Below are positions 12,527-22,281 of a stretch of 23,205 bases of DNA, piece after piece. The notes under the pieces were generated by a model. It did no database searches and was not told the DNA's origin. It was given only the letters and a program-made list of their open reading frames with translations. The first letter of the stretch is position 1, and each line of letters starts with the position of its first letter. The DNA is from a virus. The stretch covers positions 1-23,205 of the IMG/VR virus record IMGVR_UViG_3300042691_048644. One strand, given 5' to 3'. Position numbers and translations under genes: made by a program.

Positions 12527-13681
12527 ATGCCATTATTTTCATCATTTTCCGGTAGTTTGTCTATACTTGCGGGCCCGGTACCTTTAATTATTACACCAAG
12601 CACAACAAGCATGACTGAGGGTGAAGAGGTGGTTTTCACAATTACTGGCCCCAGTAATACATATTTTCTAACTCCTCAAAATTTACGACCTCATTCATTA
12701 AACGCCGCATTTAAAACTGTAACTGTGTCTGGAGGAGAAGCCACAGTTTCTTATTTTGTTGGAATAAACTCCAATAATACTGAATCAGATAATGTATGGA
12801 GAATGAATGTTCGTACCGGAAGTACAACAGGACCAATTGTTGCTACTAGCGCAGACATTACAGTTTCTACCGTAATTGCGGGAACCTTTATTGATGAGGT
12901 GGCTGGATCAAGAAGTTGGACTGTTCCCGATGGAGTTACTAGTATTTCTTTCATAATCGTTGGTGGTGGCGGCGGCGGCGGCGGTTATCAATCCGGCACT
13001 GGCCGAGGCGGGGGAGGAGGAGGTGCTGTTGCAGCTCGAAATAATGTAGCTGTAACGCCTGGCGGCACAGTAAGTTACACTATCGGTGCGGGTGGAACTG
13101 GTGGAGCAAATACTACCAATGGTGGAAATGGTGGAGCTTCGTCGTGCCGATCAGCAATCGCTGGTGGAGGTCAAGCAGCAACTGGTGCCACCGGCGGCGC
13201 CGGCGGCGTTCGAAGCGGCACGACCGATCTTGGCGGCAATGGCGGCGCCGGTGGACAAGGCAACAGTACTAACGCCGGCGGCGGTGGTGGTGCCGGCGGA
13301 CTAGCAGGTAATGGCGGCCAAGGTGGCAGCACCGCCGCTGGCTTCGCCGCTCAAGCAGGCAGCGGCGGCGGTGGCGGCGGAGGTGCCAGCAGCGGGGGCA
13401 TCGGCGGCGCCGGTGGGGGTTGTGATCTTACCCATGGATTAGGAACTTTAGTAAATGGCTCGGTCGGCGCCACGGGGGCTTCAGGTTTTGCAGGTTTAAC
13501 TAATTCCGGGTCCGGAGGTAACTTCCCTGGTTCCGGCGGCGGATCCAGTAAAAGCCCCGTATCGCCCACCGGCCTGGGCGGCAAGGCCGGCGGAATACTT
13601 ATAGTATGGCCAGGAAACTTAAGACAAGCACAAATGACTCCAGGAAATCCTCCACAAAACACTGGAACTTTACCTTCTTAA
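12527..13681 (+). CDS. Glycine-rich adhesin-like protein
   Basis: Probable receptor-binding protein. Residues 1-~115 form a beta-rich domain like Ig/Calx-beta modules (PLIITPSTTSMTEGEEVVFTI). At about 130 a linker RSWTVPDGVTSISFIIVGGGG opens a glycine-rich domain of ~230 residues with long Gly runs and GG-x-GG repeats, closing with GGKAGGILIVWPG. This layout is a known glycine-rich domain type in phage and bacterial surface proteins. In phage S16 gp38, Gly-rich motifs pack as polyglycine II helices with host-specific loops; by inference the N/S/T/A/R loops here could play that role. The DNA of the Gly-rich part is far more GC-rich than its neighbours. The gene starts nine bases after the fibre gene with no clear Shine-Dalgarno (GTACTAATC). 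A smaller chance is a fibre-tip chaperone/adhesin for the gene upstream. Confidence 0.8.
   Translation: MPLFSSFSGSLSILAGPVPLIITPSTTSMTEGEEVVFTITGPSNTYFLTPQNLRPHSLNAAFKTVTVSGGEATVSYFVGINSNNTESDNVWRMNVRTGSTTGPIVATSADITVSTVIAGTFIDEVAGSRSWTVPDGVTSISFIIVGGGGGGGGYQSGTGRGGGGGGAVAARNNVAVTPGGTVSYTIGAGGTGGANTTNGGNGGASSCRSAIAGGGQAATGATGGAGGVRSGTTDLGGNGGAGGQGNSTNAGGGGGAGGLAGNGGQGGSTAAGFAAQAGSGGGGGGGASSGGIGGAGGGCDLTHGLGTLVNGSVGATGASGFAGLTNSGSGGNFPGSGGGSSKSPVSPTGLGGKAGGILIVWPGNLRQAQMTPGNPPQNTGTLPS
12960..13610 (+). other. GC-rich island within the adhesin gene
   Basis: Hand counts for the 60-base lines at 13201 and 13321 give 43 and 47 G+C (about 72 and 78 percent); the line at 14041 in gp8 has about 25 percent. 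Glycine codons force some of this, but the third position also shifts to GGC and GCC across about 13190-13420, whereas glycine elsewhere in the window is mostly GGT or GGA. The change is sharp on both sides and inside one reading frame. Confidence 0.85.
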
Positions 13682-15122: not shown

Positions 15123-18100
15123 ATGGCTCTGAATTTTAACGTTGATCCATATTACGATGATTTTGATCCCTCAAAGAATTTTCATCGTATTCTTTTTAAA
15201 CCGGGTGTGGCGGTACAAGCGAGAGAACTAACACAGTCTCAAACAATGCTGCAAAGCCAGATTTCCAAGTTTGCAGATAATATTTTCTCACAGAATACAC
15301 CAGTTACTGGTGGTAAAGTTACTGTTAACCAAAATTGTTATTATTTAAAACTGAACGCACAGTACAATAGTGTAGACATTGTTGCTGGTGATTTCACCAA
15401 TAAAATTATTCAAGACTCAACTGGTCAAGTTATTGCAAAAGTAATTAAGACAGCAGAATCCACAGGTACAGACGCTGCAGCTGGTGATCCACCAACATTA
15501 ATCGTTACGTACCTTTCTGGTGGTCAGTTTAGTGATGGCATGGAAATTTTCCCAGCAGATGGTTCCAATTTTGCTGCAACAATTATTGGCACCATTGGTG
15601 GTTCAACAGGTATTGGGCTCTCTTCTGTTGCATCTATTTCAGATGGTGTTTTCTATATTGTCAACGGTTATTCGCAGTCGAATACACAAAATGAAGATGG
15701 TTCGTTTACCAAATACTCTATTGGTAACTTTGTATCTGTTCAACCACAAACAACAATACTAGACAAGTACAGTTCAACACCGTCCTATCGTGTCGGTTTG
15801 TCGATCCAAGAAACAATTGTAGACTACATCGATGATCCATCATTATTGGATCCTGCCGTTGGTGCATCCAATTATCAGGCACCAGGTGCAGACAGATATC
15901 AAATTAACCTTTCACTAATAACATTGCCATTGGAGTTAGGTAATGATGATCAGTTTGTTGAACTGTTAAGAATCGAAAATGGTAATGTACAGAAACAAGT
16001 CAACAATACAGTTTATTCTGTCATCGATGAATATTTTGCAAAGAGAACTTCGGAAACAAATGGCGACTATATTGTCAGCAATTTCAAGATAACTCCATCA
16101 GCAAACACAATCGATGCGAACACATATATTTTGGGAGTTGGTCCTGGCATTGCATATGTTCAAGGTTTCAGAGTAGAGAATCAATCAACACTACAAATTA
16201 CATCAGATCGTGCAAGAACTACAGATTCGGTAAATAATAATAGTAACTTTATTGACTACGGAAATTACATTTATGTTGACAATGTAAAAGGGCAAGGCAA
16301 TAGTTTTTTTGATATCACAACAGGAAGCGCAGTTGATTTTCACATTGTTGGCACAACAGGTGTTAATAGATCAAACACAACAACATACAATTCAACTTTA
16401 GCCGGCAGTGGTTATATTCGTGCATTGAGTTATGTTCAAGCTTCGAACGGATCGAACACACAAACATATACTTACAAGGCACACATCTTTGATCTTGCAA
16501 GTAAAACACTTTCCAGCAACGTTTCGGCTGCTAACAGCACTTTCACAACACTATATGTTGATTCTGCTGGGTTACTATCTAACGTGGCGAATGCATACGT
16601 TGGTTGTTCTCTAACAATCAATTCTGGTACAGATGCTGGCGATGCAAGAACAATCACCTATTACGATCCTGACAACAAAACAATTCAAACTGATTCACCT
16701 TTTACGATTACACCTGATGCAACTTCTCAGTTCTCGATTCGTTTTGGTGTAAAAGACTTTGAAACAATTGTTCAACCTGTCACAGGCACACCCTACACAT
16801 TTACAGGCAGTGCAAGTGTTAGTAATTTAGGTAAGATAAACAATGTTGCATCAGGTTACACACAGTTATTCAATCCAGGAAATCCACAACTGATCTTCCC
16901 ATTGGGTAATAAATTTGTTTCTGCTGTAACAGATTCCTCATACACCACATTACAAGAATTTAGAGCACAATCTTTCGCTAGTTACTTGGGTGGTTCCAGA
17001 AGATATCTACAGTTGGATCCATCATCAATAGGAGTATTTGATTTTATCAGAACAGGAACAACAGAGTCCGCTGATGCAATCAGACAAAATTGGATAGTTG
17101 TTGTAACAGACAGATTAACCAATACCACAATAAACAACGGTGATGTTATTGATTTTACAACAGGCAGTAGAAGTATTGCTGTTGATTCCGATAAAAACGG
17201 TGTGTATCTGACATGCCCAGACCTTGCACCATTTACCGCAACAATCTATGCCAAGTTATCTGTCACAGATGGTAACGACACAAACTATGTGCTAAAAACC
17301 AAAACTCTAGTTCAAGCAAACACAACGGTTGCTACTGTAAATGGACCCGACGGCATAGTTAATTACACACATATTGACTTGACAAATGGTCAAATATGGA
17401 TTCCACAAGATGGTGTTTTAAGTTATGGTAACAATCAAAAACTATATGTTTCTGATGTAAAACAAATCATTAAAATTATTGATACGAACGGTGCAGATCC
17501 AAATGTGGCATTGTTAACATCAGGAACAGATATAACAACATCATACACATTCAATGATGGGCAGACAGACAATTACTATGGTCATTCATATATCACATTG
17601 AAACCAGGTCGTCAGAAACCTGTTTCATTGTGGATTCTATTCGATCACTTTAATCACTCTGGCGGCGATGGTTATTTTAGCGCACAGTCTTATACAAATG
17701 TTGGTTTCAGTGACAGACCAAAATACTATGCAGGTAATGGCACACTGTTTGACCTAAAAGATTGTTTAGATTTCAGGCCTGCTGTGTTGAATGGTCAAGG
17801 CAGTTTTATATTCAAATACAAGATAACACCAACAACGACAAATAATTCTGGATTCTTTATTCCTTCTGACCTGAGTGCATTTACATCAGACTATGCATAC
17901 TATCTTGGAAGAAAAGATATACTCGTAATTGGTAAAGACAAAGGTACAAGACTTATTCAAGGTGTTCCAGACATTAATCCTGTTTTCCCTAGCCAACCAG
18001 AAGGATCTATGTTGTTGGCCAAAATCTCTTTAGATCCTTATACTGAATATGTAACAGGACAAACAACAACGGGAGAAATTGCAAACATCAATGTACAACC

Positions 18101-20192
18101 AGTAATTCACAAACGTTGGGCATTCAAAGATATTACAGATTTACAAACACGTGTTAACAATCTGGAATATTATACATCATTGAATTTACTGGAACAAAAG
18201 GCCACAAATCTACAGATACCAGATGGTAACGGATTAAATCGTTTTAAGAATGGTATTTTAGTTGATGATTTTTCAACATTTAGTGTTGGTGACACATTCA
18301 ATCCAGACTTTAGTGCTGCAATCAATACAAGAATTCAATACTTAACACCTGCGATATTAGTTAAGAATTATCCATTACAGAACCAACAGTTGTTGAGTGT
18401 CGGCGGTTTCAAAGGTTTGTCAAACACAGCCACAACAGGTCTAACATACAAAACAACAAACTTTGATAATTCTCCAATTTATACTCTAAAGTATACGGAA
18501 GAAATAATTGCAAGTCAACCACTGGCAAGTCGAGCAATCGCAATCAATCCTTTTGCCGTGGCAGATTCGATTGGTACGTTGACTCTGACTCCACCGATGG
18601 ACAACTGGATCGACAATACAAAACAACCAGACTTGTTGTTCATTGATCCTAACCTAAGAATGTATCAACCTTCAAGTTCACTTAACTTACTTGAGGGTAA
18701 TCCAACTTTAGCTGTTGCCGACTGGAAGACAATTCCTGGAACAGAAACAACAACCACAGAAACAAGAACTGAAGGTGAAGGTGAATATTCCTCTTCTTAT
18801 AAAGTAAAGGTTACAACTGTAGACAAACAAAATATTTATACCTACGGATATTGGTCACAGTCTTACTCTGTCGAAGGTAATTATATCACTAACGTTTCTC
18901 TGTTACCTTATATCAGATCACAACAGATTGCTTTCAGAGCAACCGACATGTTGTTCAACACAACAGTTAACGCATTCTTTGATGAGAAACGTGTCTCACG
19001 TATGGTTAGAAAACCAAACATCATTGAATTGAGTTCTGTTTCTGGAACATTTAATGTTGGTGATACGATTGGATATGTTGTCAGTTCGATATTCACCAAA
19101 ACTGGTGTGATTGCCGATATCTATACGTATGCAAACGGCAACGTTCGTTTATATGTAATAGGCGACATTGGTACTACATCTTATGGTGCAACAGTGAGAA
19201 ACGGATTCTTTAATACATCTGGTGTATATCAAAACAGTACAGCAAGTGGTACATTTGTTTCACAAACTCACTATTCTGGTGCATTTGCAGCGAATACCTC
19301 TTCAGCAAATACTGTAACACTTGCAACAACAGCATCATCAAGTAACACTGCATATGTTGGGCAAGAGTTCTGGATCGTCAATGGAACGGAAGCAAGTGTA
19401 CTTTCAATACCTATCGGTCAGAAGGCAACAGTTTCAAGTTACAATGGTGTAACTAAAGTGGCAACACTGAGCAGAAATGTAATTGCAAATGTTGGTGAAA
19501 CCTACTCCATTGGAGCTCTGACAACAAACGAAATTGGCTCTGTGTCAGGAGTCTTTAACTGTCCCGGCGGTTACTTCAAGGTGGGTGAAAGATCTTTCAG
19601 ATTAGATAATAGAATTGTTACAGAAGGTGCGACAGACTTCTTCTACAACAAAGGAACCGAAACAACATCTGCTGAGGCAACATTCTTTGCACAAGGGATT
19701 TCAACCAATTCTCAACAGATTAACTACTCGGCCAGTGTTTCCGGACAAGCAAATACAGTCACAACTATAAAGACAGCTAATGATGTTGTAACAAACACTC
19801 AAAGAGTTAATGGTGGTGGTGGCGGTTGTTGTGTTATTTCTACCGCAATGTCTGATATGGGTATCTGGTCATCAGATCAGAAGTTCGATCTGATCGAATG
19901 GTGTGAGAAGTATCTACACAACAAGACTATCGGTGAATGCTTCCGTCGTGGTTATCAAGTCATTGGTTCCAAGATTGCAGTACCATTGTTAAGAAATGAA
20001 AGTGTTGTTGGTAAGATTGCTAGACCATATGGTAACTGGGCATTCACCAACGGTACAAACATGGTTCGTGGCAAGAAGTTCTCATGGTTGTCTATACCAA
20101 ACTCCGTAGTTTGGATTGCAGGTTTCATGGCAGTTGGTGCAGTTGTGACAACAAAGTTCGCAAACAAGTGCTGGAAAAAACTGTACGAATAA
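15123..20192 (+). CDS. Large DUF4815-type virion structural protein with CFI-box-like C-terminal tail
   Basis: The N-terminus NFNVDPYYDDFDPSKNFHRI, then LFKPGVAVQARELTQSQTML, is the hallmark of DUF4815-type structural proteins of T4-like cyanophages, where the gene follows the wedge genes and the product is a baseplate/peripheral virion protein. At 1689 aa it is long. Residues 1-~700 are beta-rich; ~1020-1070 include a helical KRWAFKDITDLQTRVNNLEYY stretch, written here in part as WAFKDITDLQTRVNNLEYY. The tail is distinct: five Gly at 1564-1568, then Cys-Cys (1569-1570) VISTAMSD, a Cys-containing helical part with RRGY (1608-1611) and VPLLR, and a hydrophobic segment IPNSVVWIAGFMAVGAVVT (1658-1676). 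It ends with KKLYE. AAAGGA at 15112-15117 is a strong ribosome-binding site. T4 gp10 may be its functional counterpart, by inference. Confidence 0.82.
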   Translation: MALNFNVDPYYDDFDPSKNFHRILFKPGVAVQARELTQSQTMLQSQISKFADNIFSQNTPVTGGKVTVNQNCYYLKLNAQYNSVDIVAGDFTNKIIQDSTGQVIAKVIKTAESTGTDAAAGDPPTLIVTYLSGGQFSDGMEIFPADGSNFAATIIGTIGGSTGIGLSSVASISDGVFYIVNGYSQSNTQNEDGSFTKYSIGNFVSVQPQTTILDKYSSTPSYRVGLSIQETIVDYIDDPSLLDPAVGASNYQAPGADRYQINLSLITLPLELGNDDQFVELLRIENGNVQKQVNNTVYSVIDEYFAKRTSETNGDYIVSNFKITPSANTIDANTYILGVGPGIAYVQGFRVENQSTLQITSDRARTTDSVNNNSNFIDYGNYIYVDNVKGQGNSFFDITTGSAVDFHIVGTTGVNRSNTTTYNSTLAGSGYIRALSYVQASNGSNTQTYTYKAHIFDLASKTLSSNVSAANSTFTTLYVDSAGLLSNVANAYVGCSLTINSGTDAGDARTITYYDPDNKTIQTDSPFTITPDATSQFSIRFGVKDFETIVQPVTGTPYTFTGSASVSNLGKINNVASGYTQLFNPGNPQLIFPLGNKFVSAVTDSSYTTLQEFRAQSFASYLGGSRRYLQLDPSSIGVFDFIRTGTTESADAIRQNWIVVVTDRLTNTTINNGDVIDFTTGSRSIAVDSDKNGVYLTCPDLAPFTATIYAKLSVTDGNDTNYVLKTKTLVQANTTVATVNGPDGIVNYTHIDLTNGQIWIPQDGVLSYGNNQKLYVSDVKQIIKIIDTNGADPNVALLTSGTDITTSYTFNDGQTDNYYGHSYITLKPGRQKPVSLWILFDHFNHSGGDGYFSAQSYTNVGFSDRPKYYAGNGTLFDLKDCLDFRPAVLNGQGSFIFKYKITPTTTNNSGFFIPSDLSAFTSDYAYYLGRKDILVIGKDKGTRLIQGVPDINPVFPSQPEGSMLLAKISLDPYTEYVTGQTTTGEIANINVQPVIHKRWAFKDITDLQTRVNNLEYYTSLNLLEQKATNLQIPDGNGLNRFKNGILVDDFSTFSVGDTFNPDFSAAINTRIQYLTPAILVKNYPLQNQQLLSVGGFKGLSNTATTGLTYKTTNFDNSPIYTLKYTEEIIASQPLASRAIAINPFAVADSIGTLTLTPPMDNWIDNTKQPDLLFIDPNLRMYQPSSSLNLLEGNPTLAVADWKTIPGTETTTTETRTEGEGEYSSSYKVKVTTVDKQNIYTYGYWSQSYSVEGNYITNVSLLPYIRSQQIAFRATDMLFNTTVNAFFDEKRVSRMVRKPNIIELSSVSGTFNVGDTIGYVVSSIFTKTGVIADIYTYANGNVRLYVIGDIGTTSYGATVRNGFFNTSGVYQNSTASGTFVSQTHYSGAFAANTSSANTVTLATTASSSNTAYVGQEFWIVNGTEASVLSIPIGQKATVSSYNGVTKVATLSRNVIANVGETYSIGALTTNEIGSVSGVFNCPGGYFKVGERSFRLDNRIVTEGATDFFYNKGTETTSAEATFFAQGISTNSQQINYSASVSGQANTVTTIKTANDVVTNTQRVNGGGGGCCVISTAMSDMGIWSSDQKFDLIEWCEKYLHNKTIGECFRRGYQVIGSKIAVPLLRNESVVGKIARPYGNWAFTNGTNMVRGKKFSWLSIPNSVVWIAGFMAVGAVVTTKFANKCWKKLYE
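19812..20189 (+). other. Gly5-Cys-Cys tail domain of the DUF4815-type protein
   Basis: Codons for residues 1564-1689. The order Gly run, Cys-Cys-x-I-S-T-A, RRGY, VPL-x-R, then a terminal hydrophobic segment resembles C-terminal tails recalled from cyanophage structural proteins (CCFI ... RRGY ... VPLMR) and the bacterial CFI-box C-terminal domain (CFIATAAYGS type). Cysteines lie at 1569, 1570, 1594, 1606 and 1683. Its function is not known to me. Membrane insertion or disulfide/metal chemistry are possibilities by inference only. Confidence 0.6.
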
Positions 20193-20195
20193 ATC

Positions 20196-20645
20196 ATGGG
20201 ACTAAGTGTAGCTGAATATTTCGCACAAAAAGAGGCCTGTGCCTCCTGTGTGGACCATGGTACAGAAGAACATTGTGTAACTACACTGTTAAGCAGAAAA
20301 GAAAATTGTTTTGTTTATAGTATCATACACAATCAGATAGGTGAATATAAACAACAAGAGATCGAACTTCTCCGAAAAATGAGGGAAGATTGTTCAGAAG
20401 AAGAAAACGTAATTTATTATGTTAGGGGTGAAAATATAATTGAAAAGATGGACCTGATGAATAAACCTTTCTACGAACAGGTTTCTATTTTCAGTTATAT
20501 AAATTACAAATATATTAAAAGTGTTGTCGAAGCATTGGTTCAAAAAAGAACAGATGATGCAAAACGTCTAATAAATACTATGTTAGAAGTTCTTGAAAAA
20601 GAGAATAACATACCGAAGGAATTAAATGAGTTCAAGTACTATTGA
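20196..20645 (+). CDS. Small Cys-containing protein of unknown function
   Basis: Not recognised. The 149-aa protein has an N-terminal cluster C15-x2-C18-x2-H21-x4-H26-C27, then C38 and C66, which could bind a metal ion. The rest is charged and probably alpha-helical (GEYKQQEIELLRKMREDC; later KRTDDAKRLINTMLEVLEK). No nuclease motif of the HNH or GIY-YIG kind, no signal peptide and no membrane span are seen. Composition differs from its neighbours: rich in Lys, Glu and Cys, poor in the Asn/Thr/Ser beta repeats of the structural genes. It begins three bases after the DUF4815-type stop without a clear Shine-Dalgarno and overlaps the next gene by 20 bases. By context it could be an assembly chaperone or a partner of the Cys-rich tail just upstream. 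Confidence 0.72.
   Translation: MGLSVAEYFAQKEACASCVDHGTEEHCVTTLLSRKENCFVYSIIHNQIGEYKQQEIELLRKMREDCSEEENVIYYVRGENIIEKMDLMNKPFYEQVSIFSYINYKYIKSVVEALVQKRTDDAKRLINTMLEVLEKENNIPKELNEFKYY
20615..20620 (+). promoter_or_regulatory. Shine-Dalgarno fixing the 551-aa gene start
   Basis: GAAGGA lies five bases before the ATG at 20626, inside the preceding gene. This supports the overlapping start, and hence a deliberate separate gene rather than a broken fragment. Confidence 0.75.
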
Positions 20646-22281
20646 TCCAGTAGCGCAAACATTTATCATAGATGGTCAGAATTTTCCATCTGGAGCTTTC
20701 TTAAGTTCTGTTAATTTGTTTTTTAGAACAAAGCCATCGACGAGCGTGCCAGTTCGCCTTTGCATATTATCAACTATCAATGGTTATCCAACCGGTCAAC
20801 CATTGAATTATTCCATTGTCAGTTTGCCAGCCACTTCAGTTAAGGTTTCTGAAACACCGCATTACTTGGATTCAAATTCGTATACGAATTTTGCTTTTTC
20901 GGCTCCGGTTTATATTAACCCAGAGCAATTATACGCAATAATTGTTCAGTCATCTTCAAATGATTATACATTGTGGTGTTCACAACAAGGCGACACCGCA
21001 CTGTTATCAACATCAAAAGCTTTACCCACAGATTCTAATCCAACAACATCAACAAAAATTGTTACCACTCCGTATGTTGGTGATCTGTTCGAATCACAGA
21101 ATGGATTAACTTGGACGGCTGACTTATTAAAAGACTTGATGTTTACAATTAATAGATGTAAATTTGTTACAAACACATCACCTTCAATGTCATTTGTTGT
21201 GCCGGCAGGATTACCGCAGAGAAGAAAAATTGAATCCAATACGGCTCTATCTACAGCCAACTCTACATACGATGTATTAAACCTATCTACAACAGATCTA
21301 ACACCACCAGGAACAACTCTTACATATCAGTACACGACAACACTAGAGTCTGGTTCAGCTGACGGCCCATATAGTGTGGTACCAGGAAAATATGGCACAC
21401 CAAAATCGGAAGATGTTTATTTGAATGATAATAAAGGTCCCAGAATTTTAAATTATACAGCAAACGACTCATTTAAATTACAAGTCTCATTATCTACAGA
21501 TGATGATGCAGTAAGCCCAATTATTTCAGAAGATGGATTGAGCCTATGGACAATTCGTTATAGAATTAACAACATGGGAATTTCAAATGATGACATTTTC
21601 CTAATTTCTGGTGGCCGAGGATACTTAGCCAATGCGAACGGAACAATTTCGTATCCTGAAATTACAGTTTCTGCACCCGATTTGGGTGGTGGTGAACAAG
21701 CTTACGTTTCTGCCAACATTCAATCTGGAAATATTGTCAGTGTATATGTTACATCAGAAGGTTCTGGATATCTGACAACACCATCAATCACCATTTCAAA
21801 TACATCAAATGTGTCAGCAAACGTGATTATTGCTGGTGAAACGTCACCCACCGGTGGAAACGGCAGAGCCAAATATATAACACAGGTTGTCACCTTGGCA
21901 GAAGGTAGTGATTCTGGTGATTTAAGAGTTTACACATCAGCTTATAGACCACCAAATTCAGATATTCATGTTTATTATAAGATTGTGGCCAGAGATGACA
22001 CACAAAAAATTGAACAGGGTGATTGGAAATTGATGACGATTACAAGTGGTGCCGGAAGATATTCGACAAGTTTTTCTGATATTGTTGAATATGAATTTTC
22101 ACCAGGTACTCTAAATGTTGCAGATGAATTTGTAAGTTATACCAGTAAAGCCAACGGGCTTTCTTACACATCATTCTATCAGTTTATGATTAAGATTATC
22201 ATGTCATCTTCCGATTCCACATTTGCACCATTCTTAGATGATGTACGAGCAATTGCTCTGCCACCAGGAACAGGACTATAA
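20626..22281 (+). CDS. Virion structural protein with DPxAQTF N-terminus
   Basis: A 551-aa baseplate-type protein. It opens with IDPVAQTFIIDGQNFPSGAF (6-25), then VNLFFRTKPS, VPVRLCILSTINGYPTG and SAPVYINPEQLYAIIVQS. I recall this block from the C-terminal half of DUF4815-type and related cyanophage proteins, where DPLAQTF, FFRTK and NGYP are conserved. Residues ~324-404 hold two Gly-Tyr beta modules (ISGGRGYLANA and SEGSGYLTTPSITI). The end, including YEFSPGTLNVADEF and APFLDDVRAIALPPG, is beta-rich and also typical of these proteins. By inference it works with the DUF4815-type protein and may be its detached C-terminal half. It overlaps the previous gene by 20 bases and is followed after one base by a small gene. 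Confidence 0.8.
   Translation: MSSSTIDPVAQTFIIDGQNFPSGAFLSSVNLFFRTKPSTSVPVRLCILSTINGYPTGQPLNYSIVSLPATSVKVSETPHYLDSNSYTNFAFSAPVYINPEQLYAIIVQSSSNDYTLWCSQQGDTALLSTSKALPTDSNPTTSTKIVTTPYVGDLFESQNGLTWTADLLKDLMFTINRCKFVTNTSPSMSFVVPAGLPQRRKIESNTALSTANSTYDVLNLSTTDLTPPGTTLTYQYTTTLESGSADGPYSVVPGKYGTPKSEDVYLNDNKGPRILNYTANDSFKLQVSLSTDDDAVSPIISEDGLSLWTIRYRINNMGISNDDIFLISGGRGYLANANGTISYPEITVSAPDLGGGEQAYVSANIQSGNIVSVYVTSEGSGYLTTPSITISNTSNVSANVIIAGETSPTGGNGRAKYITQVVTLAEGSDSGDLRVYTSAYRPPNSDIHVYYKIVARDDTQKIEQGDWKLMTITSGAGRYSTSFSDIVEYEFSPGTLNVADEFVSYTSKANGLSYTSFYQFMIKIIMSSSDSTFAPFLDDVRAIALPPGTGL

Follow-up and report, generated by a model that had tools for sequence, protein, structure and literature searches.

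Chaperones encoded downstream are known from T4, from R-pyocins and from the two Alteromonas phages V22 and A5, gp27 of V22 being essential and gp9 of A5 not (PMC7289586, PMC10579305). The chaperone of cyanophage Pam3, gp25, embraces the distal parts of the fibre (PMC9608196). T4 gp38, Mu Tfa, V22 gp27, A5 gp9 and Pam3 gp25 are all encoded by small genes directly 3' of a virion fibre gene and are paired with an exchangeable C-terminal fibre part, an arrangement also found at the locus described here. Polymorphic toxin-immunity loci resemble it as well, in that an exchangeable C-terminal domain is followed by a cognate small gene. Unlike the chaperone-paired tail fibres, the C-terminal domain studied here (hereafter T) is helical and basic, also occurs on a baseplate protein and is part of a cassette that splits the baseplate gene; unlike the known chaperones, the downstream partner (hereafter P) has no family match and is helical, and partners can be as small as 61 aa.

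The window, i.e. the whole stretch of 23,205 nucleotides of viral DNA that was analysed and that is a viral record in its own right, contains an ORF at 15123-20192 (+) that encodes 1689 aa and is surrounded by a T4-like structural cluster with gp6- and gp8-like proteins. The features relevant to this study are the following.

15123..19811, + strand: residues 1-1563, the DUF4815 / phrog_358 body and N-half of the split baseplate protein.
19812..20189, + strand: T domain of type 1, an exchangeable C-terminal domain predicted to be helical, residues 1564-1689, delimited by 29 related loci, alignments, the AF2 model and the CFI-box link.
19812..19832, + strand: Gly5 linker and Cys-Cys, placed by alignments A2 and A4 and the hhalign register.
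20085..20144, + strand: predicted hydrophobic helix of T (T residues 92-111), from AF2 secondary structure and the hydropathy maximum.
20196..20645, + strand: partner gene P of family A, 149 aa, acidic product, starting 3 nt downstream of the T-gene stop.
20626..22281, + strand: C-half of the split phrog_358 protein, 551 aa, starting MSSSTI-DPVAQTF, matching the phrog_358 profile from position 1420.

The body clearly passes the cut-off of PF16075 (DUF4815; 212.5 bits, cut-off 30) and matches phrog_358 over profile positions 5-1417 with an E-value of 7e-239. Body (P0001) and C-half (P0005) together correspond to the DUF4815 / phrog_358 baseplate proteins of Kyanoviridae and Ackermannviridae, for a relative of which a structure has been solved (PDB 9euf); the window version differs in that the T-P cassette separates it into two ORFs. 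The same cluster also encodes, at 12527-13681, a Gly-rich fibre-like protein that matches PF21722 and has no T domain.

Residues 1564-1689 read GGGGGCCVISTAMSDMG...FRRGYQVIGSKIAVPLLR...SIPNSVVWIAGFMAVGAVVTTKFANKCWKKLYE. All elements that the original prediction had named in this tail are present, i.e. Gly5, CC-V-I-S-T-A, RRGY, VPLLR and a hydrophobic stretch of about 19 residues, and its view that the tail is unlike the rest of the protein is confirmed by Cys, Trp, net charge and the hydropathy maximum alike. These last 126 residues hold five of the ten Cys and six of the 14 Trp of the whole protein, have a net charge of +8 against -32 for residues 1-1563, and include the Kyte-Doolittle maximum of the protein (1.75, residues 1662-1680). 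Over the loci collected, T has a median net charge of +5 to +10 and a pI of 9.2-9.8, and T types 1 and 2 (see below) contain 4.5-5.1 Trp per 100 aa against 0.5 in the body. In the loci read, T ends at the stop or a few residues short of it. The 19-row tail alignment has 29 invariant columns; the wide type-1 alignment retains C7, A12, W19, K24, L27, W30, C31 (in W-C-E), R45, G47 and Y48 as invariant, C7 being the second Cys of the Cys-Cys pair. Close pairs show dN/dS of about 0.05-0.14, which indicates that T, P and the two halves are all under purifying selection. With 29 loci, conserved columns and low dN/dS, the tail is not a chance feature.

The AF2 model of T, made with 24 sequences, has a mean pLDDT of 88.8 and a pTM of 0.81 and is all-helical, with six helices. 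It places the hydrophobic stretch in a helix and hence contradicts the buried beta core that had been named as the outcome that would speak against the prediction. Membrane insertion, suggested at the same time, is possible yet borderline given Kyte-Doolittle values of 1.4-1.75; the hydrophobic moment of the helix is low (0.12). Foldseek found no match of T at E < 0.001 in the PDB and, in BFVD, a few large phage proteins at TM 0.59-0.69, none of them below E 0.001. When the tail itself was run through hmmscan, NCBIfam, Pfam and PHROGs yielded no significant match.

The likeness to the bacterial CFI box that was part of the prediction was brought up by none of the searches with a single sequence but has a statistical basis in profile comparison; membership in that family does not follow. 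The type-1 tail profile aligns to a CFI-box profile, made from 17 sequences from Bacteroidota genomes, plasmids and one C. difficile phage, over 56 columns starting at the Cys (hhalign Prob 71.6, score 32.6), C7 being equivalent to the CFI box Cys; the best of 60 column shuffles scored 16.7 and the reversed CFI profile 9.9. The wider alignment A4 scored 31.1 where 100 shuffles reached at most 18.6. NF041770 aligns to the tail of contig L031 over positions 1-67 of 69 with 12.7 bits, short of its cut-off of 40, and hmmscan gave no match to NF041770 at E<=10 for P0002 or A1 members. Since the profiles are linked and yet the NF041770 score is below the cut-off, the type-1 tail is, at the level of sequence, a distant relative of the CFI box and not a member of CFI_box_CTERM. 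Both are C-terminal, start at the Cys of a C-[hydrophobic]2-[AS]-[TS]-A box, are basic (median pI 9.2-10.2) and have an L..(W/F).(E/D)..L....G..F...Y core in the same register over the 56 columns. In the type-1 tail the box is relaxed from C-F-I-A-T-A to C-[VY]-[VIM]-[AS]-[TS]-A and the core from L-R-x-F-R-D...G-R-x-F...Y-Y-x-x-S-P to L-I-x-W-C-E...G-E-x-F...G-Y. T further differs in its second invariant Cys, C31, which is Arg in most aligned CFI boxes, in its hydrophobic C-terminal helix and in its length of 126 aa versus 69.

Sampled CFI boxes sit on cold-shock-domain and CAP-domain proteins, among others, and further carriers look by eye like TPR and nuclease proteins, so that the box is more than a tail for surface sorting. 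In the open literature no paper was found on CFI-box or CFIATA, and we know of no partner gene for CFI-box domains. At four plasmid loci (L115, L118, L119 and L121) the CFI-box gene reaches a few nt into the one that follows, which may hint at bacterial partners, the cases being four and overlap being common in operons. Clostridioides phage pCD1602_4 (L120) has a canonical C-terminal CFI box and was the only record of the phage collection found with the bacterial CFI-box query.

Two IMG/VR scans identified the type-1 tail at 29 loci with 44-95% identity. At about half of these it is carried by DUF4815 proteins and at the others by unrelated proteins, namely Gly-rich fibres (L035-L037), a 1089-residue incomplete ORF (L038), a 274-aa protein (L015-L022) and a 926-aa protein (L039). 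Roseophage CRP-1 gp49 and 22 related loci end in a relative of the type-1 tail, which keeps a shorter hydrophobic segment (IGLLFFYIPSYTIALYKML). A second fibre-end domain, type 2 ('KIICTKL...'), was found at 32 loci; homology between T types 1 and 2 is not supported (hhalign 17.1, shuffles up to 23). The fibres of L036 and L037, which match PF21722, have homologous bodies (54.5% identity) and end in tails of type 1 and type 2 respectively (20.5% identity), the switch occurring at the same Gly-rich linker and P being kept at 65%. In L063 a DUF4815 protein is split as in the window, with a T of type 2 and a 61-aa partner. On these sequence comparisons T is a movable, exchangeable domain and behaves as a module. 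Upstream of position 2501 in L149, L155 and L156 the linker before the type-2 tail is Cys-rich rather than Gly-rich (e.g. PVYNCTSNANCFTFNCNCSKIICTKL).

The prediction had likened the tail to a domain that some cyanophage structural proteins also carry; that it is common in cultured cyanophages is not supported. Over 430 Synechococcus-phage and cyanophage records match the DUF4815 body, and tblastn with the type-1 tail matched one of 50,697 records, roseophage CRP-1; the type-2 tail is present in one cyanophage. The sole result from 84,980 bacterial and archaeal genomes, in Prevotella (L104), was rejected as a chance match, and therefore no bacterial type-1 tail is claimed.

The swap of T types between homologous fibre bodies, the terminal position of T after Gly-rich fibre domains (PF21722, L036/L037) and the small gene downstream would all suit a receptor-binding tip, with P as a Tfa-like assembly factor and T exchange altering host range. 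This is distinctly improbable, since T evolves no faster than the body (59-62% versus 51-52% identity at the largest distance), has a dN/dS that is unlike that of typical host-range tips, and, being helical and basic with a hydrophobic helix, does not have the form of a lectin-like beta head. As T is conserved no less than the body of the baseplate protein, general envelope docking is favoured over a host-range tip.

The partner gene and the split of the gene carrying the tail were both missed by the original prediction, whose suggestion that the tail anchors another protein comes nearest to what was found. A search with P family A alone (A3) yielded 30 loci, comprising 24 distinct tails, and at 30/30 of these P lies directly 3' of a T-bearing gene, the stop of which is located -1 to +3 nt from the ATG of P. 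The backbones are 17 DUF4815 proteins with type 1 and 13 others (3 type 1, 10 type 2). Type-2 genes that lack family A are followed, few nt after the stop, by a second family of small, helical-looking proteins of 61-111 aa, in which homology links the sub-classes B, B2, C and D (B-B2, B-C, B2-C and C-D at Prob 89-98.6). Class B, searched alone, was found at 20 loci, each time (20/20) immediately behind a type-2 gene; three of the contigs had been missed by the T search. Neither partner family was seen away from a T gene in these partner-alone scans (30 + 20 loci), so that, judged by gene order, a partner is always beside T. The reverse rule has exceptions in L015-L022, whose T genes have no small gene directly downstream. 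Near the partner-less type-1 gene are ORFs (L015 12862-14211, L020 12539-13285) that resemble by eye a radical-SAM/SPASM protein (CFYPFTQLSSNPAGHLKPCCNY) and a sulfotransferase. Homology between family A and family 2 is not supported; CRP-1 gp48 (129 aa; family median net charge -21) is weakly like the second family.

In L092-L097 and L102 the family-A partner carries another type-2-like domain as a C-terminal fusion (hhalign Prob 100 versus type 2); an example is L095:6001-6840, in which the T-like end reads GRVICTWL.... In L046-L073 the second ORF after the type-2 gene is a tandem class-B paralogue (B2, about 108-134 aa, acidic; Prob 98.6).

Partners have a median net charge of -2 to -21 and a pI of 4.1-5.9. 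As most window proteins are acidic, the acidity of P says little by itself and only the basicity of T stands out. The AF2 model of P is helical with a pLDDT of 81 and a weak Cys-rich N-terminus. Known Tfa- and gp38-like chaperones are encoded directly downstream, as are the partners, but likeness of P to a known chaperone in sequence or fold was not found: Foldseek gave no match at E<=0.001 and no known chaperone, and Pfam, NCBIfam and PHROG families gave no significant match. Weak FliS-like matches were set aside.

Four Cys, C15, C18, C27 and C38, are invariant in P family A (alignment A8), as are C7 and C31 in type 1. In conjunction with the extra Cys in the linkers of L149, L155 and L156 and the disulfide network reported for the tail of phage Milano (PMC10811340), this could be taken to mean that T and P are shielded or joined by disulfide or metal links, set only after lysis. 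The partner in the cultured cyanophage SynMITS9220M01, however, is without the first three of these Cys, partner family 2 is almost Cys-free, and Arg replaces C31 in most aligned CFI boxes; such thiol chemistry is the least probable of the readings we considered.

The single-ORF homologues of the window protein are found in S-CAM8 (2490 aa), Melnitz-3 (2127 aa) and PhaxI (1612 aa). P0001 matches the N-terminal parts of the one-piece homologues and P0005 matches them from the DPLAQSF domain on, residue 7 of P0005 aligning with residue 1731 of S-CAM8. By eye, the window sequence before Gly5 resembles the S-CAM8 segment that precedes 'GWYDPLAQSF'. The cassette thus lies exactly at the boundary of the DUF4815 body and the DPLAQTF domain, which means that the gene is split in two and that the C-half has its own start, overlapping the stop of the partner by 20 nt. 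A second protein is split alike in SynMITS9220M01, where QJT70041 matches phrog_24848 over profile positions 6-380 and has a type-2-like end, and is followed by a family-A partner and then by a gene that matches profile positions 390-784. Comparison with the one-piece homologues suggests that the one-piece state is ancestral and that the cassette was gained. A split intein was discarded upon inspection, as no intein-like motif was seen and the C-half begins with its own Met beside a conserved domain.

The split raises the question whether P is a permanent structural joint, i.e. whether a T+P connector holds the C-half (20626-22281) or another fibre on the baseplate protein and replaces the lost covalent link. 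The order N-half with T, P, C-half is kept in the window and in the DUF4815 loci long enough to show it, spacing is tight or genes overlap, and the split falls exactly at a domain boundary, as it does in phrog_24848. We nevertheless consider a joint unlikely, because T-P pairs also occur on Gly-rich fibres that are not known as split halves (L035, L101 and L103) and because the partner at the same split site ranges from 61 aa (L063) to 149 aa (window).

Our preferred reading, to which we assign a probability of roughly 45%, is that T is a membrane-interacting tip and P its dedicated, translationally coupled chaperone, the two forming a cassette in which a tip domain of the virion is paired with the product of its cognate gene downstream. 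The T domain, about 120 aa, helical, basic and Trp-rich, forms the end of a baseplate protein or fibre, to which a Gly-rich linker joins it, and in the window the cassette at the body / DPLAQTF boundary makes two polypeptides out of one. By virtue of its hydrophobic helix, positive charge and Trp, T could be a tip that contacts the membrane or envelope from the periphery of the baseplate. The hydrophobic helix would need shielding in the producing cell; P would bind nascent T through translational coupling and, in the manner of downstream tail-fibre chaperones, maintain its solubility or correct fold until assembly. That P binds T, that it is a chaperone and that T touches membranes we infer from this architecture, the exchangeable end, the small coupled downstream gene, the charge complementarity and the hydrophobic helix making a tip with chaperone the most economical explanation. 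Against it, the hydrophobic helix may be the mere core of a helix bundle, L015-L022 lack a small downstream gene and Foldseek showed no chaperone fold for P. Recognition of T by P would also have to be loose, since family A serves both T types although these lack detectable homology.

The same architecture of constant body, Gly linker, exchangeable C-terminus and adjacent small gene is that of polymorphic toxins, and T is basic with a hydrophobic helix, so it could instead be a membrane-disrupting virion effector from which P, as an immunity protein, guards the producing cell. Toxin-immunity pairing is very improbable, as no Pfam, NCBIfam or PADLOC model of such proteins matches T or P, T is strongly conserved and not diversifying, and many bacterial proteins bear the related CFI-box domains with no immunity gene known for them.

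With these results, an odd tail of a single protein becomes a two-gene rule across many uncultured phages, with two T types and two partner families, and T and P are a directly testable pair from two families without any annotation. The locus also indicates that a baseplate gene can be broken at a domain boundary through the gain of a tip cassette, with both halves under purifying selection. It is a doubtful generalization, which we put forward tentatively, that these loci represent an unnamed class of phage cassettes, in which a helical envelope-docking C-terminal domain travels with its own chaperone and splits baseplate and fibre genes at domain boundaries, one type being related to the CFI box. 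If true, the bacterial CFI box would be a docking domain of the same kind, which would provide a first handle on the possible role of this widespread bacterial domain.
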